Counted from the first letter of the stretch, positions 1 to 57,032 are shown. The stretch: 57,032 bases of DNA from a virus (IMGVR_UViG_3300017963_000310:1-57032); one strand, 5' to 3'. Notes: generated by a model not told the origin, from the sequence alone. Numbers and translations are program-made.

Positions 1-212
1 AACTCACTTTGACAAACAAGTCAAGACTATTGCTCTGTGTGTTAATCAACTCACTTTGACAAACAAGTCAAGACTATTAACGCACAGCATAATCAACTCA
101 CTTTGACAGACAAGTCAAGACTATTGCTCTGTGTGTTAATCAACTCACTTTGACAAACAAGTCAAGACTATTAACGCACAGCATAATCAACTCACTTTGA
201 CAGACAAGTCAA
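1..212. repeat. 47-bp tandem repeat array (left end)
   Basis: Four full 47-bp units start at 1, 48, 95 and 142, and a partial unit runs from 189 to 212. Every unit contains the dyad TTGAC, 6 nt, GTCAA (last copy 197-212). The remaining part alternates between two forms, ATTGCTCTGTGTGTTAAT and ATTAACGCACAGCATAAT, which are nearly reverse complements of each other. The array lies just beyond the 3' end of the leftmost gene and continues at the other end of the window, so the two halves most likely join in a circular molecule. Iterated dyads of this kind are known as iterons, partition sites or repressor sites; the sequence alone does not decide. Confidence 0.9.
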
Positions 213-1123: not shown

Positions 1124-2477
1124 CGGGAAACGGCAGTTCGTCCAGAATAGCGTCTACCACCGCGCGCTTATCCCGCAGGGCGCGGTGGATCTTGGTGTCG
1201 ACCGTGCCCTTAGTCAACAGGTGGAGATACGTCACGGCGTGCTGCTGACCAGGGCGCATGATGCGGGCGCGGCTCTGTAGGTATGCGCCCAGATCAAAGG
1301 TCAAATCGTAGTATAGCACGTACCGGGCCCGGGTCATGCTGATGCCCTCGCTGCCCGCCTTGATCTGCACCACCAGGGCGTTATACATTCCGCTCTGCCA
1401 TTCGGCCAGTTGGTGGTGTGTTCCTGATAGCTCGGCGGCGCTGCGGCCAGCCCGGGCTAGCTCTTCTAGCACGAGCTGGATGCTGTGCCGGAACAGGCAA
1501 AACACCACCAGCGGCTCTCCGGGCGGCAAGTCGCGCAGCGTATCACGCAGCAGCATACGCTTAGCCCGAGAGATGACCTCGTGCGTTCCGTCATCATACT
1601 GTAGTAGCCCAGCGCTGGCGATCTGGTGCAGGCGCAGCAGCTTGGTCAGGGCGTTAGAGACAGTAACGATCCCGGCTGCGGTCCCGGCGATAAACTCTTT
1701 GTGCAGATCGCGGTATACCCGCTTGGCTTTGGGTTCTAGTACGGCGTAGCGCTCCTGGTCCACCTCGGGCGGTAGATCCAGCACATCCCGGGTACGTACC
1801 TGGACCGACAGGCTAGCGATCTTCTCGCTTAGCTCTCCCTGGTTGACCCACCGTATGACCTCGCGGTTTTCGAAGCCGCCCATGATCGCGTACCGAGCCC
1901 GGAAGTCCTCAAAGCGGGTCCCGAACACCCACGGGGCCAGAAAACGGAACTGAGCGTACACGTCGAGCGGTGAGTTGGGCATCGGGGTGCCGGTCAAAGC
2001 CAGTCGGCGAGGCATACGGCGGCCCAGGTGCCCGAAGAACTTGGAAGCTTTGCCCCCGGGGCTCTTGATACGGTGGCTTTCGTCCAACACGCACAAATCC
2101 CACTCGATAGAGCGCAGAGTAGCCGCCAGTACCGGACGCCAGGCGCTTTCATAGTTGAGTATGGCCCACAGTGGGCGGCGTTGCTGGAAAGCCTGTGTGG
2201 CATGGTTGGCCAACGCGGCGGCTTTGCCTTTAGAGTCACGCTGGTCGGGCGCTACCACGTACCACGGACGGCGCGACCAACGAACCACCTCTTCGGGCCA
2301 GACCGACAGCACGCCCTTAGGGCAGATTAGCAACACCCGGTTACAGTCCCAGCGGTCGGCCAGGTCGACAGCTATCCGGCTCTTACCGGCTCCCATGTCC
2401 AAGAACAGGCCAAACGCCTCGTACTGAGCGGCGGTATCCAGGGCGGCTTGCTGGTGTGGCCAGCGGGGCGGTGTCAT
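1116..2477 (-). CDS. SNF2-type superfamily 2 helicase
   Basis: 453 residues, a compact two-RecA-fold SF2 ATPase of the SNF2/RapA group common in phage replication modules. Visible motifs: Walker A region DMGAGKSR (about residues 27-34), motif II DESH (about 132-135), motif III LTGTPMP, and motif VI QSRARIMRPGQ near residue 400. It would translocate on double-stranded DNA and remodel replication or recombination intermediates. The ATG overlaps the end of the upstream VRR-NUC gene by 4 bp and has GGAG upstream, so the two are translationally coupled. Distal gene of the long replication operon. Confidence 0.93.
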   Translation of the reverse strand: MTPPRWPHQQAALDTAAQYEAFGLFLDMGAGKSRIAVDLADRWDCNRVLLICPKGVLSVWPEEVVRWSRRPWYVVAPDQRDSKGKAAALANHATQAFQQRRPLWAILNYESAWRPVLAATLRSIEWDLCVLDESHRIKSPGGKASKFFGHLGRRMPRRLALTGTPMPNSPLDVYAQFRFLAPWVFGTRFEDFRARYAIMGGFENREVIRWVNQGELSEKIASLSVQVRTRDVLDLPPEVDQERYAVLEPKAKRVYRDLHKEFIAGTAAGIVTVSNALTKLLRLHQIASAGLLQYDDGTHEVISRAKRMLLRDTLRDLPPGEPLVVFCLFRHSIQLVLEELARAGRSAAELSGTHHQLAEWQSGMYNALVVQIKAGSEGISMTRARYVLYYDLTFDLGAYLQSRARIMRPGQQHAVTYLHLLTKGTVDTKIHRALRDKRAVVDAILDELPFPAE

Positions 2478-2902
2478 GGCCTACTCCGGTATAACTGCTG
2501 TTCGGTGGTGACGACCCGGTGCAATCGTTGCTCACAGAGCAGCACTACCTCAAACGGGTCGCGTGGGTTGAGCTCGTCCAGTACTCGTAGGGCACTGCCA
2601 CAATGTGGGCAAGGATAGGGCAGTACATCTCCACATATCCGCAGCGCTTCCTCGGGGCTGGTGGCCACCCCGGCTCGAGCTCCCACCGACCGCCAACGTT
2701 TAAGCTGTGCGGCCTGGAGGGGCGTTAGCCGCCCCTCCTTGGTCTTGACCTCGATCGCCACAAACCGACCATGAAAGCAGGCAAACAGATCAGGGCGTCC
2801 ACGTTCGGTATACACTCCGGTGTTTTTGGTAGCGTCGGCCCCCTGATCCTGGATGGCCCGTATGATGGCCCGCACGACCGAGCTTTCAGAAGGGCAAGTC
2901 AT
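2474..2902 (-). CDS. VRR-NUC domain nuclease
   Basis: 142 residues. The core GRPDLFACFHGRFVAIEVKT gives the PD-(D/E)XK pattern of the VRR-NUC family (D near residue 38, E-x-K near 51-53), followed by GRLTPLQ. These small nucleases cut branched DNA and often sit beside SNF2-like helicases in phages, as here. After the nuclease core comes a CPHC pair and a later Cys, possibly a small zinc site. RBS AGGA upstream; it overlaps the end of the preceding gene by 17 bp. Confidence 0.9.
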   Translation of the reverse strand: MTCPSESSVVRAIIRAIQDQGADATKNTGVYTERGRPDLFACFHGRFVAIEVKTKEGRLTPLQAAQLKRWRSVGARAGVATSPEEALRICGDVLPYPCPHCGSALRVLDELNPRDPFEVVLLCEQRLHRVVTTEQQLYRSRP

Positions 2903-3614
2903 CGTCCATCCTGGACAAGAACTCGGCTTCTAGCGCAGCCAGGTCTTGGTCGGTCAGCCTGCAGTGCAGGATATAGTTGACCGCAGCCCGGAGATCGGGC
3001 ACCTGCACCACGTCGTGCGCCTCTAGGCTAACTAATGATCCGATCACTATCACCGACTTACCCAGTGCGCGGGCGTATTCAATCTCACGGATAGTACCGA
3101 AGCCCCGGCCCGGGCCCTTTAGGTTGGCTAGCACCAAAGTGCAGTGCTGGATGGCAGCCCGGTTGATGCTGCTAACCGCCTGGGCCATGGCCTGGTGTAC
3201 GTCTTTCAAGTCGGGCAGCTCATAGGCGGTTAGTGGGTTAAAGCAGGCCACCCCTCGCTGGGTTAGTAGCTGCTCAGCCTGATCACGCCAGCAGGCCCCA
3301 TCTACTACGTCGATGTCGTCGATCGGCCCAGCCAGGTACACCATGACCGTGTCGCTGGGCCACTCATCCCGGGCCACCAACAGGGCGATGACGGCATAGC
3401 CTGCGATGTCTTTGATGGTGTCTTCCAGGCTCTCGTTGTCCGGCTGTTGGCCGTTTTGAGCCAGGTTACGCAGGCGCACGATCTTGTCGGTTAGGCGCAT
3501 AGCCACCCCGGGTAGCCCGAGGTGGTATATGTTGTCGCGCGAGTAGTCGCGGCCTTTACCGCCTAGCATCGTGTCTAGCTCGTCTAGTATGGCCTTAATC
3601 TCGGGCGCTGACAT
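2886..3614 (-). CDS. Fusion of NMAD1 (DUF1599) domain and nucleoside 2-deoxyribosyltransferase-like domain
   Basis: 242 residues. The N-terminal part (about 1-85) shows the nucleotide-modification-associated domain 1 pattern: GRDYS, DKIVRLRNL, and NESLEDTIKDIAGYA (residues 60-74), an acidic helical core like that of all-alpha NTP pyrophosphatases. The C-terminal part (about 91-215) has VYLAGP, then NLKGPGRGFGTIREIEYARALGK (written here only to mark residues 165-186), the nucleoside deoxyribosyltransferase/DNPH1 fold, with Glu177 as likely nucleophile. Start at 3614 chosen for GAGGTG upstream; it overlaps purZ by 20 bp. In Z-genome phages MazZ makes dGMP and DatZ destroys dATP; this fusion could supply one or both steps. 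That role is inference. Confidence 0.82.
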   Translation of the reverse strand: MSAPEIKAILDELDTMLGGKGRDYSRDNIYHLGLPGVAMRLTDKIVRLRNLAQNGQQPDNESLEDTIKDIAGYAVIALLVARDEWPSDTVMVYLAGPIDDIDVVDGACWRDQAEQLLTQRGVACFNPLTAYELPDLKDVHQAMAQAVSSINRAAIQHCTLVLANLKGPGRGFGTIREIEYARALGKSVIVIGSLVSLEAHDVVQVPDLRAAVNYILHCRLTDQDLAALEAEFLSRMDDDLPF

Positions 3615-4689
3615 GCGGCACCTCAACGATCGACCACTCTGGCCCCCCGGTCCCAACGAACAGAACCGGTAGATCGAACTCCTGCTCTATCTGGCGCACG
3701 ACTACCCGCCCTTTTTCACTCAGGTCGTCCCAGCGGGTTTTGCCCTCGTCCTCTGGGCTGACGTAGTCCAGGAAGTTGAGCGCCAACCAATGCGGGCCGT
3801 TGACCCGGATGGCGTGTTCCACCAGGCGCGGATTAAACTCGGCCACGCGTCGAACTTTCTTGGTGACGGTGGTGTGCTCCAGCACCGGTCGGCCTACCCG
3901 GGCGCTTAGCTCTTCCCAGCTGATTTCGTCGGCAATCGGCCCGCTGTTGCCACCGACCCGGATCGGGTAGGTACGGATCACCAGGCCCACCTCGGTTACG
4001 GCATGCGGGGGCAGGCCGACGTCGGCGGCGAACTGGGCCGCGTTGGTGTCGTTACTGGTGACGTAGGGCCAGTGGCCATGGATCAAGGACAGCCCAAAGC
4101 CTTGCGCGCCCTCTAACAGGATGCGGCTGTTGGCCTGCCGGGCCTGGTGCAGCCATTGGGCGGTGTCAAGTAGGATACTCTGCAGCGCCCAACCGTTACC
4201 AAGCGTGTGATCGAACGCGACGTCGCGCATGCGCTTAAAATGGTCCGGGTTGCGCCGGATACGATCCAAACGCGCAGCGCCTACGCCTTCACCGGTGGAC
4301 CCGATGCGGGCGTGCAGTTCGCCTTGCGTGCCACCCTCTTCGGCGTGGTGTTGGTGCCCGATGATGCCCGCCCCCAGATCGACCCGCACGCGTTCGTAAA
4401 TGGTGGGGTCGACCTCGGCGATAGCGTCTAGCTCTTGCACTAAGAGCTTGGGGTCGACTAGTGCTCCGGCCCCGATGATGAGCGTAGCCTTGGGGTTAAT
4501 CCACCCACACGGCACGCTCTGCATGGCCCATGTGCGCCCTTGGTGTTTGAAGGAGTGGCCCGCGTTGGGTCCCCCTACCCGGACGTGTACGTCGTACTGT
4601 TGGGCTAGGTACTTAACGATGTTGCCTTTGCCCTCGCTGCCGTACTGGCCACCTATGATAGCTAGGACGGCGGGGTGTTGCTGTTGCAT
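3595..4689 (-). CDS. purZ: PurZ, aminoadenylosuccinate synthetase for 2-aminoadenine DNA
   Basis: 364 residues, an adenylosuccinate synthetase homologue shorter than bacterial PurA (about 430). The P-loop reads GGQYGSEGKGN (residues 13-23): Ser18 stands where PurA has its catalytic Asp (GDEGKG). That exchange is the known hallmark of PurZ, which joins aspartate to dGMP to make the precursor of dZMP; host PurB completes the step. The conserved GPNAGHS with His45 is intact. The gene lies between a PolA-type polymerase with one small gene between them and the NMAD1-NDT fusion, as expected for a Z-synthesis cluster. RBS GAGGAG lies somewhat far (about 11 nt) from the ATG. Confidence 0.95.
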   Translation of the reverse strand: MQQQHPAVLAIIGGQYGSEGKGNIVKYLAQQYDVHVRVGGPNAGHSFKHQGRTWAMQSVPCGWINPKATLIIGAGALVDPKLLVQELDAIAEVDPTIYERVRVDLGAGIIGHQHHAEEGGTQGELHARIGSTGEGVGAARLDRIRRNPDHFKRMRDVAFDHTLGNGWALQSILLDTAQWLHQARQANSRILLEGAQGFGLSLIHGHWPYVTSNDTNAAQFAADVGLPPHAVTEVGLVIRTYPIRVGGNSGPIADEISWEELSARVGRPVLEHTTVTKKVRRVAEFNPRLVEHAIRVNGPHWLALNFLDYVSPEDEGKTRWDDLSEKGRVVVRQIEQEFDLPVLFVGTGGPEWSIVEVPHVSARD

Positions 4690-4964
4690 GATGGTTTGTG
4701 CTCCTCTGGTAAGTCGGTAGGTGCTAGGTCTAGTATCTGGTGGACGCTAGACAGGCGGCGCTGGACACCAGCGGCGATGCGCTGGGCACCAGCCTGGGCG
4801 AGTGCCAGGTTTTCACACGCTAAACCGTGCTTATGCTGGTCATCGGCGGTATCGATCAGTAGCTGTAGGTAGTCCAGGTGATCGAGGGCGCTAGCTAGGC
4901 CTTCGAGCATCTCGGGTAACCGTACCAAGTACGGCTGTAGTTGAACATAGCGGTTATCAGTCAT
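4662..4964 (-). CDS. Small unknown protein between dpoZ and purZ
   Basis: 100 residues; no family recognised. Mostly helical in appearance (PEMLEGLASALDHLDYLQLL, then an Ala-rich stretch), with an unstructured tail DLPEEHKPSCNSNTPPS. The ATG at 4964 overlaps the polymerase stop (ATGACTGA) and has GGGGAG 7 nt upstream; its 3' end overlaps purZ by 28 bp. This tight placement between two Z-metabolism genes suggests a linked role, for example a subunit or a helical NTP-binding protein, but no MazG or HD motif can be seen. Confidence 0.8.
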   Translation of the reverse strand: MTDNRYVQLQPYLVRLPEMLEGLASALDHLDYLQLLIDTADDQHKHGLACENLALAQAGAQRIAAGVQRRLSSVHQILDLAPTDLPEEHKPSCNSNTPPS

Positions 4965-6666
4965 CAAGCATCTCCCCTAGACGCGTGCCGATCTTAACGT
5001 CCACCGCCATCGGGGCGCTGATCCAGCTGGGTACGTCCAGCATGATCTCCTCAACCGCGGCGGCTACCTCGTGTATGCCGTCCAGCGGCGTCTCTATCAG
5101 AAAGTCATCGTGGACCTGCAGCAGTAGATGGGTGTGGTCATCGCATAGCTCCTGGTCGATGCGCATCATGTCTTCGCGCATGATCTCGGCTACTGTGCCC
5201 TGGATGAGATTACTCATCGCTTTGTGGGCGGGGGCTCGTTTCCGGTCGTTGTAGTGCCGCCGTCGTCCGGTGTACAACTGGATGTAACCCCGAGTCTGGG
5301 CTATCCGTTGGGCGCGGTGGTACAGGTCCCGAAAACCGGGATACGCCCCGCGGTGTTGCCCTAGCAGCGCTTGGGCTTCTTTGTATGAGATGTGCAGGTC
5401 GTTAGCTAACGGGCCAGCCCCCATGCCGTACACCATGCCGAAGTTGATGCGTTTAGCAAAGTGCCGCGGTAAGCCTAGCTGCTCGGCGGTCGCGCTGTGT
5501 GGGTCCAGGCCCTGTTCTAACGCCCGGATCAAACCGGTCTCACGGGCATAGTGGGCCCCCACCCGTACCTCGGCTTGTTGGTAGTCGATCGCGATTAAAC
5601 CGTAACCCGGGCGGGCGACGATGACGTCCTTGACCTTGTACACCTCGGTGCGCACCGGCAGCGCTTGCAGGTTGGGGCTGTTGCACGACAGGCGGCTGCT
5701 GACCGTACCGGTGACGTTGAGGTTGGGATGCAGGATGTGTTGCCCGTCCATCTCCTCCAGAAAACGCCGGTAGTAACTGGTCAAGGCCCGGTGCCAGGCC
5801 CGGTAGGTTAGCATCAGCTGCGCGCCGGGGTGATCAGGCATGGTTTCTAATACATCGGCTGCTGAGCTCTGTACACCTAGCCAGGCCTGTACTTGCTTGG
5901 CGCTGCGCGGGTTGAGCTCGTAGCCTGCCAGAGCCTGAATACGGGCTTCGGTGACGGTGTGCTGCTCCTCGCACTCGGCCATGTATTGCTCGATCAGCGG
6001 TACGTCCAACTGCACGCCGTACAGCATCAAGCGGATAATCAGGTGGTTGTACGCGTTGACCTGCAGCCCTAGGTCGTGGAAATACCGCTTAGCCAGGTAT
6101 TGGTGCGCCAGCTCGGCCAGGGCCCAAGTCAGATCGACGTCCTGCACAGCGTACGACTCCACCAAGACAGCCGGTAACTGCCACATGTCGCCCTTGTTTA
6201 AGCCTCCACGCTTACCTAGCGCAGCCTGTAGCTCTCGCTCTTGGGCCTGGGCGTTGCTGTCGATGTACTTAGCCCCTAACTCTTTGAGCTTAAGACTGGG
6301 CTCGTTCTCGTTGAGCAGATGGATCAGGACCATGGTGTCCTCTAGCCGGACGGGGTGCACAGGAAAATCCCAGCCTGCTTGGACCATAAACGCTATATCA
6401 AAGGACCAGTTATGGCCCCGCCATACTGGCGCGTGATAGGTGGCTTCTATCAAAGCGGGTAGTTGTTCGAGCGGTAGGTTGTCCCCCTCTTTGTGCCGGA
6501 AAGGGAAGTAATAGCCTGTGCGTGGGGTACGCACCGCCACCCCGCAGATGCGATCACGGTGTGGCCCCCAGCGCTGTAACCCGGTGGTTTCCAGGTCGAT
6601 AGCTAACATCTCGCTGTTGGCGATGTCCTGCAGGGCGGCCTGAAAATCGGCCTGAGTGACTAGCAT
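4957..6666 (-). CDS. dpoZ: PolA-family DNA polymerase with 3'-5' exonuclease, DpoZ-like
   Basis: 569 residues. N-terminal DnaQ-type exonuclease: AIDLETTGL (Asp24, Glu26), HNWSFD (Asp90) and YAVQDVD (Asp176), all acidic residues kept. Polymerase motifs follow: motif A IAIDYQQAEVRV (Asp361), motif B RHFAKRINFGMVYG (Lys405), motif C LLLQVHDD (His519, Asp520). There is no 5'-nuclease domain. PolA enzymes next to purZ in Z phages (DpoZ) prefer dZTP over dATP; the neighbourhood supports that label, which I infer rather than see. TAATG overlap with the preceding gene; GGAGG upstream of the start. Confidence 0.92.
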   Translation of the reverse strand: MLVTQADFQAALQDIANSEMLAIDLETTGLQRWGPHRDRICGVAVRTPRTGYYFPFRHKEGDNLPLEQLPALIEATYHAPVWRGHNWSFDIAFMVQAGWDFPVHPVRLEDTMVLIHLLNENEPSLKLKELGAKYIDSNAQAQERELQAALGKRGGLNKGDMWQLPAVLVESYAVQDVDLTWALAELAHQYLAKRYFHDLGLQVNAYNHLIIRLMLYGVQLDVPLIEQYMAECEEQHTVTEARIQALAGYELNPRSAKQVQAWLGVQSSAADVLETMPDHPGAQLMLTYRAWHRALTSYYRRFLEEMDGQHILHPNLNVTGTVSSRLSCNSPNLQALPVRTEVYKVKDVIVARPGYGLIAIDYQQAEVRVGAHYARETGLIRALEQGLDPHSATAEQLGLPRHFAKRINFGMVYGMGAGPLANDLHISYKEAQALLGQHRGAYPGFRDLYHRAQRIAQTRGYIQLYTGRRRHYNDRKRAPAHKAMSNLIQGTVAEIMREDMMRIDQELCDDHTHLLLQVHDDFLIETPLDGIHEVAAAVEEIMLDVPSWISAPMAVDVKIGTRLGEMLDD

Positions 6667-7016
6667 TAGTCCTCCTCAGGGGCAGGCGTGCACCAGCCCG
6701 CCTGCAGGGCTGTCCACCGGTGGCTGTTGTTCAGTAGTTGCTGCACCTCCTGCTTGTTACTGTGGACGTGCAGCCGCTCCTGGTGCCAGTGCGCAAACAG
6801 CACCGAGTGATTGCCCGGACCCGCCTCGGATAGGAAAGCGATCATGCGCGGGCCGTGTTCGTACGCTTGGCTATCCTTATACACGGTAAACAGTACGTTA
6901 TCAGGGTTTATCTCTGGCCAGGTAGCGTGGATAAGCTCGGCCAGACATCTTGCGGCGGCGTCTCGATCGGTAGCGACGCTGCGCATGGTGAACAGGGTCA
7001 CGAGTTGTAACTGCAT
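6666..7016 (-). CDS. Unknown small protein upstream of the polymerase
   Basis: 116 residues, no family recognised. It reads as a compact alpha/beta protein with several aromatic and His residues (FAHWHQERLHVHS near residues 73-85) and an acidic end. RBS GGAGAG upstream of ATG; its stop shares one base with the polymerase start. Presence inside the replication operon suggests a DNA-metabolism accessory role, otherwise unknown. Confidence 0.8.
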   Translation of the reverse strand: MQLQLVTLFTMRSVATDRDAAARCLAELIHATWPEINPDNVLFTVYKDSQAYEHGPRMIAFLSEAGPGNHSVLFAHWHQERLHVHSNKQEVQQLLNNSHRWTALQAGWCTPAPEED

Positions 7017-7025
7017 GGTGCTCTC

Positions 7026-7535
7026 CTAAAAAAACTCGCGGTGGTCGAGGCACGCGACGGCGTCAGCGATGTCTTGTTTAGTAATCCACCGGCCCTGAAA
7101 GGTACCGGTCTCGGACGGGCGCTGCAGGTCCCACACGAACCAAGCGTACGTGTCCGGGTTGAAATCCTGCCCCATCTGCGCCGGGTGAAGATCGCGCAGG
7201 TGCACCCGGGTTAAACCAGTGCTTTCGAAATCAGCGCGGTGAAACTGTAGGTATCGGGGCGGCATGAGTAACGCGATCTTATGTGTAGCGCAGTGCACCA
7301 TCTTGTTAACCCAGAGTAAGCGATCAAAAGACGGCGGCTGGCCAATGATATTAGGCACTGGGGCCCCCTCGCAGTGTAGCAGAGAGCGAGACGCGGTGCA
7401 GACCGGCAGACCCCAGGCCCGTAAGACCTGGGGAAAGCCGGTGATGTCCCGCGTGGGGTCCCACACCAGCCCCTCGAAACGCTCCATGGATAGTAGCCCG
7501 AGGAGCGCGTCTCGGTGAGATGGTCGGGGCCCCAT
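7026..7535 (-). CDS. Degenerate adenine-methyltransferase-like protein
   Basis: 169 residues. The layout resembles small phage N6-adenine methyltransferases: WDPT near the start where motif I would be, then IIGQPPSFDRLLWVNK where the catalytic (D/N)PPY lies, then IALLMPPRYLQFHRADF and a YAWFVWD strand. Here the catalytic tetrapeptide reads QPPS and the SAM-binding glycine motif is not evident, so it is probably either inactive or changed in substrate. In a Z-DNA phage a target other than adenine would make sense. It starts 2 bp after the ssDNA-binding protein gene. Assignment is by pattern only. Confidence 0.6.
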   Translation of the reverse strand: MGPRPSHRDALLGLLSMERFEGLVWDPTRDITGFPQVLRAWGLPVCTASRSLLHCEGAPVPNIIGQPPSFDRLLWVNKMVHCATHKIALLMPPRYLQFHRADFESTGLTRVHLRDLHPAQMGQDFNPDTYAWFVWDLQRPSETGTFQGRWITKQDIADAVACLDHREFF

Positions 7536-7537
7536 GA

Positions 7538-8062
7538 TTAGAACTCTTCGCCGGTGTCGGGCCCGGGGGCCTGGTCTTCGATGCGGCTGCCAGCGGCGGG
7601 TGTAGGCTCAAAGTCGGGCACTTCGCCCGCTCCGAGCTTGGTGCCAGCCCCTTCAACGGGGGCCATAACGCGCGTGATCTCGTTGCGCATCTGCTCGTTG
7701 AACATGCTTTTACCCACCACTAAGCGTACCATGGTGTTGACGTATTCCGAGTATACTAGGCGCATCTTGGTGCCCAGCTTGCCCAGGCCAGTGGCCTGCA
7801 GCATCTCGCGGATCTTCCAGGCCGAGCTCTCGCTCTTGACCGTCCAGGTGCGCAGTTCGACCCCTGCGTGCGGCGGGTCGATCAGCACGAACTCCCAGAC
7901 CAACATGTCGTTGTTGTTGCGGCTGACGGCTTCGGTGACCAGCATCAGCACCGCGCGATAGGTGCCCTCTGGTATGGTATTGTCGTCGGACCAGCCGGTG
8001 GTGTCCAGCTCGATCCCCACTTCGCCGGTTTGGTTGTTGCCACCGGGCAGATCATCAGTCAT
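7538..8062 (-). CDS. DUF669-like single-stranded DNA-binding protein
   Basis: 174 residues. IPEGTYRAVLMLV, then a long strand-rich body and SAWKIREMLQATGLGKLG match the phage DUF669 pattern (OB-fold, SSB-like). The C-terminus is long, Pro/Gly/Asp-rich and ends in an acidic tip (GPDTGEEF), as in SSB proteins that recruit partners. It stands directly downstream of the Sak4-like ATPase, a usual pairing in phage recombination modules. RBS AAGGAG upstream of ATG. Confidence 0.8.
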   Translation of the reverse strand: MTDDLPGGNNQTGEVGIELDTTGWSDDNTIPEGTYRAVLMLVTEAVSRNNNDMLVWEFVLIDPPHAGVELRTWTVKSESSAWKIREMLQATGLGKLGTKMRLVYSEYVNTMVRLVVGKSMFNEQMRNEITRVMAPVEGAGTKLGAGEVPDFEPTPAAGSRIEDQAPGPDTGEEF

Positions 8063-8103
8063 GTCGAACTCCTTGTTATCTTAGGGTCGGATAGTGCTGC
8101 GGC

Positions 8104-8886
8104 TTACTGACGGCAGCTAAGCAGCAGGTCGTACAGCGTAGCGAGAGTATGCCCCTCTTCCACCTCGCCGGTCTCGGTGTTGGTCCCGGCTACGCGAAAG
8201 GTGGGGCCTATCTGCTGGGCGAACGCATGGCCGCGAGTCTTGGCCATGTAACCGCGGCGCTCGGTGGTTAAGACCATGCGCCGTCCATCCTTAACATACA
8301 CGTACCATACGAAATCGGCGAAGCCCGCCAGGCTGGTGCCCAGCTTACTGGTAAACAGTGGCACAACTTCGATAGGGTCGACGCCGGTCGTGTCTTCGAT
8401 GTTGGGCGGGTATATCTCTTTGGGTAGCGCTGTCATGATGACGTTGACGCGTAAGTCCCGGAACATCCGGCCCAGGCGGCGCAGCGCGGCGGTGTTGACC
8501 CCGTAGTCCTCCAGGTATATGTCGTTCGGCCCGCGGCGGGCGTCGGTGCGGGCTTTTTCCTCAGCGGTCTGGGCTAGCATGACGTTCTGCAGCTCTGTCC
8601 CGCTGTCGATCACTACGGTCTTGATCTGGCTATAGGGCTCCTCCTCGGCCTGGGCCAGCTTCCAAAAGATCTCCTCGACCGCGGCAGCGGTGGGAGTATC
8701 GGCGATCAGGATGTCGTCGCGGTGAGTCAACGATAGCATGCCCCCCTCGACGTTTAGGAACAGGACCTGGCGCATCGCCTCGTGGTCCCCTGCGGTGGCG
8801 GCCAAGCTGGTCTTACCGGCTCCGGCCTTGCCATACAGCAGCAGGTTAAACTGCCACGGTATGTTCGTACTACTATAGATCGTCAT
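8104..8886 (-). CDS. Sak4-like RecA-fold ATPase (AAA_24)
   Basis: 260 residues. Walker A GKAGAGKTS (residues 19-27), NVEGG, Walker B-like VVIDSGTE (about 90-97), and a later VNVIMTA strand are typical of Sak4/AAA_24 annealing-type recombination ATPases of phages. It likely acts with the downstream SSB-like protein and the upstream Cas4/RecB-like nuclease in recombination-dependent replication. The ATG overlaps the nuclease stop by 4 bp and GAGG lies upstream. Confidence 0.9.
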   Translation of the reverse strand: MTIYSSTNIPWQFNLLLYGKAGAGKTSLAATAGDHEAMRQVLFLNVEGGMLSLTHRDDILIADTPTAAAVEEIFWKLAQAEEEPYSQIKTVVIDSGTELQNVMLAQTAEEKARTDARRGPNDIYLEDYGVNTAALRRLGRMFRDLRVNVIMTALPKEIYPPNIEDTTGVDPIEVVPLFTSKLGTSLAGFADFVWYVYVKDGRRMVLTTERRGYMAKTRGHAFAQQIGPTFRVAGTNTETGEVEEGHTLATLYDLLLSCRQ

Positions 8887-9908
8887 GCATTAGCCTCTTC
8901 TCCGGGCCCAAAACCCGGCTTGTACTGGTACTCGGTCTGGAGCAGCCAGTCGGTGTCTTCGCCCCGGAGTTCAGCCAGGCAGAACTCGCGCACCAGGCAG
9001 CCCCGGCACTCCAGGCCGGTCATGTTGCGCCACGGGTGCATCTTGACCCGACCGATGGCCCAGGCGGCCCGCTGTACGATCTGCTTCCAGAAGGAAGCGA
9101 CGAGCTCGGGACTGCGATAGGCGAACAGCGGATCGAAGAACTTGTTATCGGCCAGTTTATCGGCCATGTCGACATAGTCAGCGGGGTCTAGGCCCGCAGC
9201 CAGTAGGGCCTCGCGATAGGTGGCCCAGTCGGTAATACAGGCGGCCCGGCTCATGCTGCCGTCTTTGTTACGCTTCGGCCAGCGCGGCGTCTCGGACCGT
9301 ATTTGAAACAGGCAGGTGCCGGTCGTTTCCACGCCGTTGCGCGTTAGCAGGTGCTGGTAGGCGGCCAGCTGCAGGTTGGTGTCTTCTGTCTCGGGACCCT
9401 GCAGCGCTTTGCGGGTTTTCCAGTCGACCAGCCACACTAGGCCGCTAGCTGGGTCGCGGGCCACCCAGTCGACTACACCCACGAAGCCCGCAAAGGGCGA
9501 CAGCGGGGCGCACAGCTTTTGCTCGACCAGGGGCAGCCGAACGCCGTCCGGGTCGGTAAACCATACCGTTTGCCAGCCGAGCTTGTTGATCTCGTCGATT
9601 GTGCGGTATACAATACCGATACTGAGCTCTAGTGCCTCATACCCTTCGGCCCGAGCGTCTACTGACAGCTGGCGGTCGTTAGCGTCTTGCTCCCAGCGGT
9701 GCCGCAGCGTGTCCTCAACCGGGCGATCTAGCAGGTGGGCGGCGATGCCCTGGTGTACGAAGCTGCCTAGGCGCATCGGCCCTGACACGGTGCGCCGTTG
9801 GATACCGCGCTTGTAGGCTAGCGCCCAGCGGTATGGGCAGGTAAAGCTTACGATCTGTGAATAACTAAGGTGGTGCTTTTGGGCCCACCAAGTGTTGTTT
9901 CGGGTCAT
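8883..9908 (-). CDS. Cas4/RecB-like PD-(D/E)XK exonuclease with Fe-S cysteines
   Basis: 341 residues. SYSQIVSFTCPYRWALAY at the N-terminus is the Cas4/AddB start with the first Cys; the nuclease core is GVVDWV... and LVWLVDWKTRK (D-x-K), followed by the QxxxY-type LQLAAYQHLL. CRGCLVREFC near the C-terminus supplies three more Cys, so a 4Fe-4S cluster is likely. It would resect DNA ends for recombination together with the Sak4-like ATPase. RBS AAGGAGG. Confidence 0.92.
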   Translation of the reverse strand: MTRNNTWWAQKHHLSYSQIVSFTCPYRWALAYKRGIQRRTVSGPMRLGSFVHQGIAAHLLDRPVEDTLRHRWEQDANDRQLSVDARAEGYEALELSIGIVYRTIDEINKLGWQTVWFTDPDGVRLPLVEQKLCAPLSPFAGFVGVVDWVARDPASGLVWLVDWKTRKALQGPETEDTNLQLAAYQHLLTRNGVETTGTCLFQIRSETPRWPKRNKDGSMSRAACITDWATYREALLAAGLDPADYVDMADKLADNKFFDPLFAYRSPELVASFWKQIVQRAAWAIGRVKMHPWRNMTGLECRGCLVREFCLAELRGEDTDWLLQTEYQYKPGFGPGEEANA

Positions 9909-9921
9909 GCGTTCGTCCTCC

Positions 9922-11841
9922 TTAAAACACGGGTTTGTCCCCGGCTAAGCTATACCGGAACTGGCTATCCTGGGTAACGGTGCCCTCTTGGCGTAAGGAG
10001 CGTAGGGCGCGGCTGATAGTAGTGCGGTGCACCTTGGTCTTGTTGGCTAAGTCGGCGGCCCGTAGTGGCTGCTCGGCCTGCAGCAGGCGGGTGATTTCAG
10101 CCTCTAGGCCCTGGTCGGGGCCGGTCTCGTCTTCGTCTTCCTCGATGTAGACGTTATAACGGGTGATGTCGGCGTCCTCCTTGCGGATGTCAAAAACCAT
10201 CTGCACGGGTGGTGGCTGGCCTGCGCCCTTGAAGTAGCGCGCTAGCCGGACCTTGCCGGTCTCCTCGTCCGGGTACAGCTGCCATTGTGTCTCGCTGGCG
10301 GCATTTAGGAACTGGCTGCCCCAGCCGCGTTCGCGACCCTCGGTATCGCCTTTCTTGCTATGGTGCACGATTACAAAGCCAACCTGGTACACCTCGCGCA
10401 ATCGTTTGAGCTTGCTAAGCTCTTGGGCGGTGTCGGCCAGGTATCCGTCTAGCTCTCCCCCGGCTACGTATAGTGGATCAATCACCACCAGCACCGGCTT
10501 GATGCGCCGGATTTGCTCCTCTAAGGCCCCTAGCGACCCGTCATGGTTAAGCTGCAGCTCGTTGGCGGGGTGCACGTACAACGGAACGTGCTCGGGTAGA
10601 TTAAACTGCCAGGCGTTTGGTGCGCCTTGTTCATCGCGCTCTAGCACTTCAATCATCGGCTGGTCGCCGTGGACCTTAGGGTGTTGGACGATGACCAGGC
10701 GCTCGGCGGTGGTCTGCCGGGCGTCTTCTTGTTGGTACAGTAGCACCGGGCCTTGCCGATTGACCCTCTCTCCGAGGTAGGTGTAGCCCCCGGCCACCGC
10801 CATAGCCAGGTCCAGCCCCATCCAGGTTTTGTGGCTGCCGGGCGGCCCGACGATGAAATGTAGCGAGTTGTCTGGCAGCCAGCCGTCGACCAGCCAAGTA
10901 ACGCCGGTCCCGGCATACTGTAGGGCATATGACCCGTACAGCTGCATCTCCATCGATCGTTGGGCTGGGTCGTCAAAAGCGGCAATCACCCCGGTAGCTT
11001 GCTCGGTGATATCGACCTCGTAGCGTTCGAGAAACTCGCTTTCGCCCTCCACCGCGCGGGGCGCGGCAGGCGGCGGTTGACGACGGGCGGCGGTGCGGTA
11101 TACCGAGGACACGGTACGATCGACATCCTCACGGGTCATAGGCGGGCGGTTGTGCAAGTTCCAGTTTTGCAGCAGGCCCTGGGCGATGTCTTCGGCTATC
11201 CGGTGCCCATAGAAGAACCCGGCTAGGCCCGCACAGGTCGAGTTGCGCTCTCCGCGCGCCACGCCGTGCTGGAGCTTATGGGCGATCCAGTGCTGGCCCT
11301 TGTTAGCTGCGATAGTGGGCTGGTCCAGCACCCAGGCCGGACAGGTCCCCCGGGTGCCGCTCTGGTGGTAGCTGTACAGCGTGCCGCTCTCGTGTACGCT
11401 AGGTGGCATGACGGCGACGCCACCATCGGCGCGTATGTCAATGCCGTCATCGCCCACACGGTTTGGCACCAACTCTTGGTCGGGCGGGTATTCGTAGTGC
11501 AGATGGTAGCCTCGCCCGGTTTTTACAATACGGGACGTCGGACCGCGTTCTAGCGCTTGGTCTAGTCCCTCGGCATGATCAACGTCCACCACCACGACCC
11601 CAGAGATCCGGCCTGTCACGATGCCCAGATTGGCCTCAGGCCACTTGGTCCACCAGGCGCGGATCTGGTCCGGCCCGGCCCGCTGTTGTTGCTGGGGGAG
11701 CCAGTTGATCATAGGCTCTTTGCCCCGGGGTTCGAGCGGGACAACAGAACAGCCCTGCTCGTGCAGCCGCAGCGCGGCGGCTAGAAGCGGGGCAGTTTGT
11801 TCTCCGGTCGTGGGAGCGGGTTGATTAGACTCGGCGATCAT
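9922..11841 (-). CDS. Bifunctional primase-polymerase and RepA/DnaB-like helicase
   Basis: 639 residues with three parts. Residues about 20-200: prim-pol domain with PRGKEP, GIVTGRISGVVVVDVDHAEG (marking the D-x-D at about 90-92) and GRGYHLHY. Residues about 290-560: RecA-fold helicase of the RepA/AAA_25 group with Walker A VGPPGSHKTW, VLVVIDPLY as Walker B and VIVHHSKKG. Residues about 570-635: winged helix with TKVHRTTISRALRSL, able to bind DNA. The protein would prime and unwind at the origin. It overlaps the HTH gene stop by 4 bp; RBS AGAGGA. Confidence 0.93.
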   Translation of the reverse strand: MIAESNQPAPTTGEQTAPLLAAALRLHEQGCSVVPLEPRGKEPMINWLPQQQQRAGPDQIRAWWTKWPEANLGIVTGRISGVVVVDVDHAEGLDQALERGPTSRIVKTGRGYHLHYEYPPDQELVPNRVGDDGIDIRADGGVAVMPPSVHESGTLYSYHQSGTRGTCPAWVLDQPTIAANKGQHWIAHKLQHGVARGERNSTCAGLAGFFYGHRIAEDIAQGLLQNWNLHNRPPMTREDVDRTVSSVYRTAARRQPPPAAPRAVEGESEFLERYEVDITEQATGVIAAFDDPAQRSMEMQLYGSYALQYAGTGVTWLVDGWLPDNSLHFIVGPPGSHKTWMGLDLAMAVAGGYTYLGERVNRQGPVLLYQQEDARQTTAERLVIVQHPKVHGDQPMIEVLERDEQGAPNAWQFNLPEHVPLYVHPANELQLNHDGSLGALEEQIRRIKPVLVVIDPLYVAGGELDGYLADTAQELSKLKRLREVYQVGFVIVHHSKKGDTEGRERGWGSQFLNAASETQWQLYPDEETGKVRLARYFKGAGQPPPVQMVFDIRKEDADITRYNVYIEEDEDETGPDQGLEAEITRLLQAEQPLRAADLANKTKVHRTTISRALRSLRQEGTVTQDSQFRYSLAGDKPVF

Positions 11842-56894: not shown

Positions 56895-57032
56895 GACAAG
56901 TCAAGACTATTGCTCTGTGTGTTAATCAACTCACTTTGACAAACAAGTCAAGACTATTAACACACAGCATAATCAACTCACTTTGACAAACAAGTCAAGA
57001 CTATTAACACACAGCATAATCAACTCACTTTG
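56895..57032. repeat. 47-bp tandem repeat array (right end)
   Basis: A partial unit from 56895, full units at 56928 and 56975, and 11 bp of a further unit at the very end. The variable half is ATTGCTCTGTGTGTTAAT once and ATTAACACACAGCATAAT twice; the latter differs by one base from the left-end copies (CGC versus CAC). This continues the array at 1-212 in a circular molecule, but the exact number of units cannot be known from the window. Confidence 0.88.

Follow-up and report, generated by a model that had tools for sequence, protein, structure and literature searches.

The genome of an uncultured phage from an environmental lineage appears to carry a module for the synthesis of Z-DNA (2-aminoadenine DNA) in which one protein, a fusion of an NMAD1 domain with an NDT domain, replaces the DutZ and DmtZ pair of other PurZ0 phages, to which this lineage is related. 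We give this explanation as a whole a probability of about 0.55. The source record is an IMG/VR virus sequence of 57,032 bp, and we refer to this whole stretch as the window. Comparison of the encoded proteins suggests that the phage DNA is probably built with 2-aminoadenine in place of adenine, and the two-domain protein probably rids the cell of adenine nucleotides. In the most likely scheme, the NMAD1 half, whose catalysis we infer, would hydrolyze dATP to dAMP and dGTP to dGMP, and PurZ would convert the dGMP to succinyl-dZMP, the precursor of dZMP, as is established for its family. The NDT half would either destroy dAMP, releasing adenine, or move its sugar-phosphate onto Z to give dZMP, as predicted from the published DmtZ and the conserved residues. 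Host enzymes would then complete dZTP, as is established for other Z-phages, and PolA would presumably incorporate it.

The longest open reading frame at the fusion (2886-3656) begins with TTG, and the ATG for a 242-residue product lies at 3612-3614. The gene is thus 2886-3614, and its overlap with purZ, which ends at 3595, is exactly 20 bp, as the initial annotation had it. Both domains exceed their Pfam cut-offs, the N-terminal one as PF07659/DUF1599 (27.0 bits against 25; also PHROG 1485, E = 4e-16) and the C-terminal one as PF05014 NDT (35.7 bits against 28.8), confirming the fusion proposed there. A search of purZ neighborhoods recovered the same fusion beside purZ in two other contigs (L003 and L009; about 39% identity), and this recurrence with conserved domain borders rules out a chance reading frame or an assembly artefact. 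In the NDT tree, the NDT parts of all three fusions cluster together (97/84). In contig L034, NMAD1 and NDT are separate adjacent genes, the second ATG falling 8 nt after the first stop, an arrangement that looks like the state before fusion. A PDB sequence search with the fusion gave no useful match, and one genome scan returned NMAD1-like matches only, in 3 MAGs.

Features of the window, with coordinates counted from its first nucleotide
Feature	Coordinates	Strand	Basis or remark
47-bp tandem repeat array, 4.5 copies	1..212	.	
VRR-NUC / Holliday-junction-resolvase-like nuclease, gene after the fusion	2474..2902	-	
NMAD1-NDT (NMAD1-DmtZ-like) fusion, 242 aa, ATG start	2886..3614	-	overlaps purZ by 20 bp
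NDT/DmtZ-like domain, about residues 90-195	3030..3347	-	PF05014, Foldseek, residue table, BLAST
NMAD1/DUF1599 helical domain, about residues 1-86	3357..3614	-	PF07659, alignment of 21, structure model
purZ (2-amino-adenylosuccinate synthetase), 364 aa	3595..4689	-	PHROG 1211 and Ser P-loop
101-aa ORF between polA and purZ	4662..4967	-	
PolA-type DNA polymerase with 3'-5' exonuclease, 569 aa	4957..6666	-	DNA_pol_A 228 bits
Remaining syntenic replication block: DUF669, Sak4-like ATPase, PD-(D/E)XK nuclease, Prim-Pol/helicase	7538..11841	-	
47-bp tandem repeat, 2.3 copies	56923..57032	.	unit identical to the 1..212 array

The enzymes that usually purge the nucleotide pool of Z-phages were not found in this record. 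Across the whole record we found no MazG, HD, DUF5664 (PF18909) or NUDIX match at E ≤ 1 and no dUTPase (PF00692, DutZ) at E ≤ 0.1, and home-made DatZ and MazZ profiles had no match in the window, which supports the earlier claim that the Z-synthesis cluster lacks both DatZ and MazZ. A single 47-bp tandem array spans both ends of the record, which also contains capsid and portal genes, so the sequence probably represents a complete circular genome cut within the array. The absences are then likely to be genuine, although several small ORFs have no assignment. The replication block occupies the minus strand of the left half (Prim-Pol, PD-(D/E)XK nuclease, Sak4-like ATPase, DUF669, PolA, PurZ, the fusion, VRR-NUC and a helicase). 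In L003 and L009 the gene order is PolA, PurZ, DutZ, NMAD1-NDT, VRR-NUC, so that the VRR-NUC gene adjoins the fusion there as well, and the window lacks DutZ at exactly the site between purZ and the fusion that it occupies in those contigs. Given that empty site and the shared terminal array, loss of DutZ beyond a contig end is unlikely. PurZ0 phages usually hydrolyze dATP and dGTP with DutZ (PMC12884076), and the absence of this enzyme, overlooked in the initial annotation, is the most unusual feature of the genome; it runs counter to the published pattern of a dutZ in every PurZ0 phage. Three small ORFs (4662-4967, 6666-7016 and 7026-7535) had no family match in domain and profile searches, and relatives of the first were sought and none found. 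A perfect 34-bp tandem repeat (2.7 copies, 1004-1096) lies between the first two minus-strand genes, and the structural arm (27368-56894) also has glycosyltransferase and methyltransferase genes.

The NDT half can be compared with an enzyme of known activity. DmtZ, published in February 2026, is an NDT-family dAMP N-hydrolase and dAMP-to-Z transferase, and its mutants show that Tyr6, Asp12 and Glu103 are essential while Asn77 and Pro57 affect the rate (PMC12884076). All five of the residues tested match in the window (Y93, D99, P127, N151 and E177 for DmtZ Y6, D12, P57, N77 and E103), and the catalytic triad of Tyr6, Asn77 and Glu103 is thereby kept. The full YDPNE pattern occurs in 42 of 51 NDT homologs on purZ loci; at the Asn77 position, all seven homologs from larger records without purZ have Asp, the ordinary residue. 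The association of YDPNE with purZ has a Fisher p of 3e-5, uncorrected for phylogeny, and three further YDPNE rows from loci without purZ are fragments or come from a contig with purZ elsewhere. The AlphaFold model (pLDDT 80) matches an NDT (6evs, E = 2e-5) and DNPH1 (8rpt, E = 7e-5) in Foldseek, and BLAST to the DmtZ domain of phage Wayne gives 27% identity (E = 2e-8). In the NDT tree, which is built on a short alignment, the window clade stands apart from the DmtZ of Ghobes and Wayne, and phages without purZ contribute NDTs to both halves. Because of this separation, we describe the NDT half as putatively DmtZ-like by function, rather than as an orthologue. A generic nucleoside deoxyribosyltransferase is less likely, since the residues at the Asn77 and Asp12 positions are those typical of purZ phages. 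Homology and signature residues thus argue for the dAMP removal that the initial annotation had suggested for this domain; as that activity is already published for DmtZ, this half of the idea was known (PMC12884076). On two purZ contigs with DUF5664 and no dUTPase, we also observe NDT genes lacking the DmtZ Asp12 and Asn77 (YKPDE; L061:4943-5608 and L065:5465-5986).

To place the NMAD1 half we surveyed its distribution over 80 IMG/VR loci with purZ, together with reference phages, which gave 71 distinct neighborhoods with at least 2.5 kb downstream. NMAD1, or a helical family that we term Xfam (Ghobes gp51 and the C-terminus of Galactica gp66), is found in 34 of the 71. Profile comparison relates Xfam to NMAD1 with a probability of 84-86% (E about 5e-6; common pattern K..YG ... 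K..R ... DT..D...Y); three Xfam members tested had no Pfam match, and a PDB search with the Xfam profile gave no useful match. DUF5664, a dATP/dGTP pyrophosphohydrolase (PMC12884076), is found in 16 neighborhoods and never together with NMAD1 or Xfam (0 of 71, 7.7 expected; p = 4e-6, or 9e-5 after clustering PurZ at 90% and 0.01 at 70%). Close purZ relatives have swapped the two families, with NMAD1 in L034 and DUF5664 in L056, whose PurZ proteins are 62% identical. Three fusion pairings occur, NMAD1-DmtZ, DmtZ-DutZ and NMAD1-DutZ, the last as 242-residue proteins directly after purZ (L081, L084 and L085, each at 7098-7826). NMAD1 and DutZ are both present in L003, L009, L034 and L035, so NMAD1 is not simply a substitute for DutZ. 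Several side observations come from the same survey. Xfam (for example, L010:7082-7645) adjoins purZ in a third of the neighborhoods. On purZ contigs without DutZ and DmtZ, a neighbor of DUF5664 is a conserved protein that bears an HD-like motif (FFVHDLGYIG/NMDG; L060:7816-8418 and L077:6317-6832), has no Pfam match and is possibly an unrecognized DatZ analogue. Eleven neighborhoods (L059, L079, L086, L087, L089, L091, L092, L100, L115, L116 and L011) have no known pool enzyme within 4 kb of purZ and may point to other solutions.

A role for NMAD1 as a purine dNTP pyrophosphohydrolase is a plausible, putative assignment. The domain is modeled as three long helices (pLDDT 81), for which the nearest solved folds are HisE/HisIE (probability 0.91) and the MazG protein YpjD; HisE and MazG proteins account for roughly one in four of the 50 best matches, none of them significant (best E 0.49; 0.49-1.1 for HisIE and YpjD). 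Homology to MazZ or DUF5664 was rejected, as hhalign found no similarity, and a literature search on NMAD1/DUF1599 function gave nothing relevant. An alignment of 21 sequences lacks the ExxE ... ExxD metal-binding motif of MazG and conserves K20, N28, G33, G36, R40, D43, K44, R47, E61, D65, D69 and Y73, of which D43, E61, D65 and D69 could, with K20, R40, K44 and R47, form a site different from that of MazG. The pyrophosphatase activity suggested in the initial annotation therefore fares unevenly: the nearest folds, the exclusion of DUF5664 and the fusions to DmtZ or DutZ speak for it, and the missing MazG motif and the non-significant fold matches against it.

The missing motif would also fit an explanation in which the NDT half functions as a DmtZ-like enzyme while NMAD1 is non-catalytic (serving dimerization, substrate channeling or regulation), with a host MazG or dUTPase or an unrecognized phage protein cutting dATP and dGTP. 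Coexistence with DutZ in four contigs agrees with this, as do the several window ORFs that match no known family. We nevertheless consider it unlikely, because the strictly conserved D43, D65, D69, K20, R40, K44 and R47 resemble a metal or phosphate site more than a scaffold, because NMAD1 and DUF5664 exclude each other, and because NMAD1 also stands alone as a gene in L034, L035 and L037. It is less probable still that NMAD1 acts on another substrate (for example dUTP, dITP or, in proofreading, dZTP) and that dATP is removed through the NDT half acting on dAMP from other routes. NMAD1 is present in many phages without purZ, so its ancestral job was not Z-specific, and DutZ and DUF5664 accept dUTP too (PMC12884076); in purZ phages, however, NMAD1 is fused to DmtZ-like or DutZ domains. 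We retain a putative dATP/dGTP pyrophosphohydrolase as the preferred role.

The Ser-type PurZ and the PolA of the initial annotation are both confirmed, the polymerase by its DNA_pol_A match and PurZ by its best match, PHROG 1211 ("2-aminooxy adenylosuccinate synthetase", E = 9e-79), and by a P-loop, GQYGSEGKG, in which Ser replaces the catalytic Asp. PurZ scores 264 bits, below the NCBIfam amino_Aden_PurZ cut-off of 300. In the PurZ tree the window protein belongs to an environmental group of 23 rows (96/90) whose neighbor is the actinophage PurZ0 set (100/100); the two join at 97/90, and the phiVC8/S-2L set (100/99) lies apart. PolA likewise lies below both NCBIfam DpoZ models (203.5 of 500 bits for DpoZ_1 and 51.8 of 350 for DpoZ_2). 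It keeps Tyr in motif B (KRINFGMVYG), a residue shared across the distinct set (99/97) in which it falls, whereas the Wayne and Ghobes polymerases have Phe, as does that of phiVC8 (PMC8599892). By these comparisons, the window PurZ and PolA would fall outside both characterized Z-phage lineages. In S-2L the PrimPol is unspecific and dATP removal bears the load (PMC8599892); if PolA has no selection for Z, exclusion of adenine would similarly be left to dATP removal. As PolA meets neither DpoZ model, dATP purging may be the main means of excluding adenine here. That no Z-DNA is made, purZ being vestigial or in another purine pathway and the fusion serving ordinary nucleotide salvage, is very improbable: the PurZ (264 against 300) and DpoZ (204 against 500) scores and the ordinary motif-B Tyr would fit, but the Ser P-loop, the PolA-PurZ-(DutZ)-NMAD1-DmtZ synteny conserved in related contigs and the place of PurZ inside the tree region containing characterized PurZ0 do not. 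Elsewhere in the survey, PurZ/PurA-like proteins with an Asp P-loop (GDEGKG) lie beside DmtZ-DutZ or DmtZ-like genes (L037:6690-7781 and L044:2675-3916).

Based on these data, we tentatively extend the proposal, at slightly below even odds. NMAD1/DUF1599 and its remote gp51-like relatives would be an unrecognized family of purine dNTP pyrophosphohydrolases. A large fraction of PurZ0-type Z-phages would have taken it up as one more convergent way to remove dATP and supply dGMP. Here one NMAD1-NDT protein alone would replace DutZ and DmtZ, in a Z-phage lineage whose polymerase is not recognized as DpoZ. This would give a testable enzymatic role to a widespread phage domain and to the Ghobes gp51-like proteins, and add an apparent further Z-phage lineage equipped with a PurZ, a PolA and a pool enzyme of its own; a single 242-residue protein that clears adenine nucleotides would also be a compact tool for producing Z-DNA in cells. 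The initial annotation had presented the solution of two problems in one protein as new. DmtZ is already known fused to the dNTPase DutZ in Wayne, so the principle is not new. What is new is the partner, NMAD1/DUF1599 instead of DutZ, together with how widely purZ phages carry NMAD1 and with a purZ genome that lacks DutZ and every other recognized dNTPase. The mutual exclusion of NMAD1/Xfam and DUF5664, the occurrence of all three fusion pairings and the position of PurZ and PolA relative to the characterized Z-phage lineages also count as new. None of the first three was found in the literature searched, outside which lie the Science 2021 Z-genome and the 2023 PurZ0 papers.

The closest known system is that of Arthrobacter phage Wayne, in which an NDT-Dut (DmtZ-DutZ) fusion accompanies PurZ0 (PMC12884076). 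In both phages an NDT-family dAMP hydrolase/transferase, predicted for the window, is fused to a known or putative dATP/dGTP hydrolase close to purZ. The partner in Wayne is a C-terminal dUTPase, whereas that in the window is the N-terminal helical NMAD1; the window genome has neither DutZ nor DUF5664, and its NDT domain, at 27% identity, branches elsewhere in the tree. Gordonia phage Ghobes (PurZ0, gp51, DmtZ gp53 and DutZ gp55) has DmtZ and, beside purZ, a remote NMAD1 relative in gp51; in Ghobes, however, the genes are separate, DutZ is present, and no function is assigned to gp51. Acinetobacter phage SH-Ab 15497 and cyanophage S-2L (PurZ, MazZ and DatZ) likewise encode a dGTPase and an enzyme that removes dATP next to purZ, but these are MazG-like and HD proteins, neither of which is in the window, and their PurZ belongs to another clade. 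Lastly, the N-terminal domain passes the Pfam cut-off for NMAD1/DUF1599 (PF07659) and its fold matches phage NMAD1 proteins; it differs from them in being fused to NDT and in lying inside a purZ operon.
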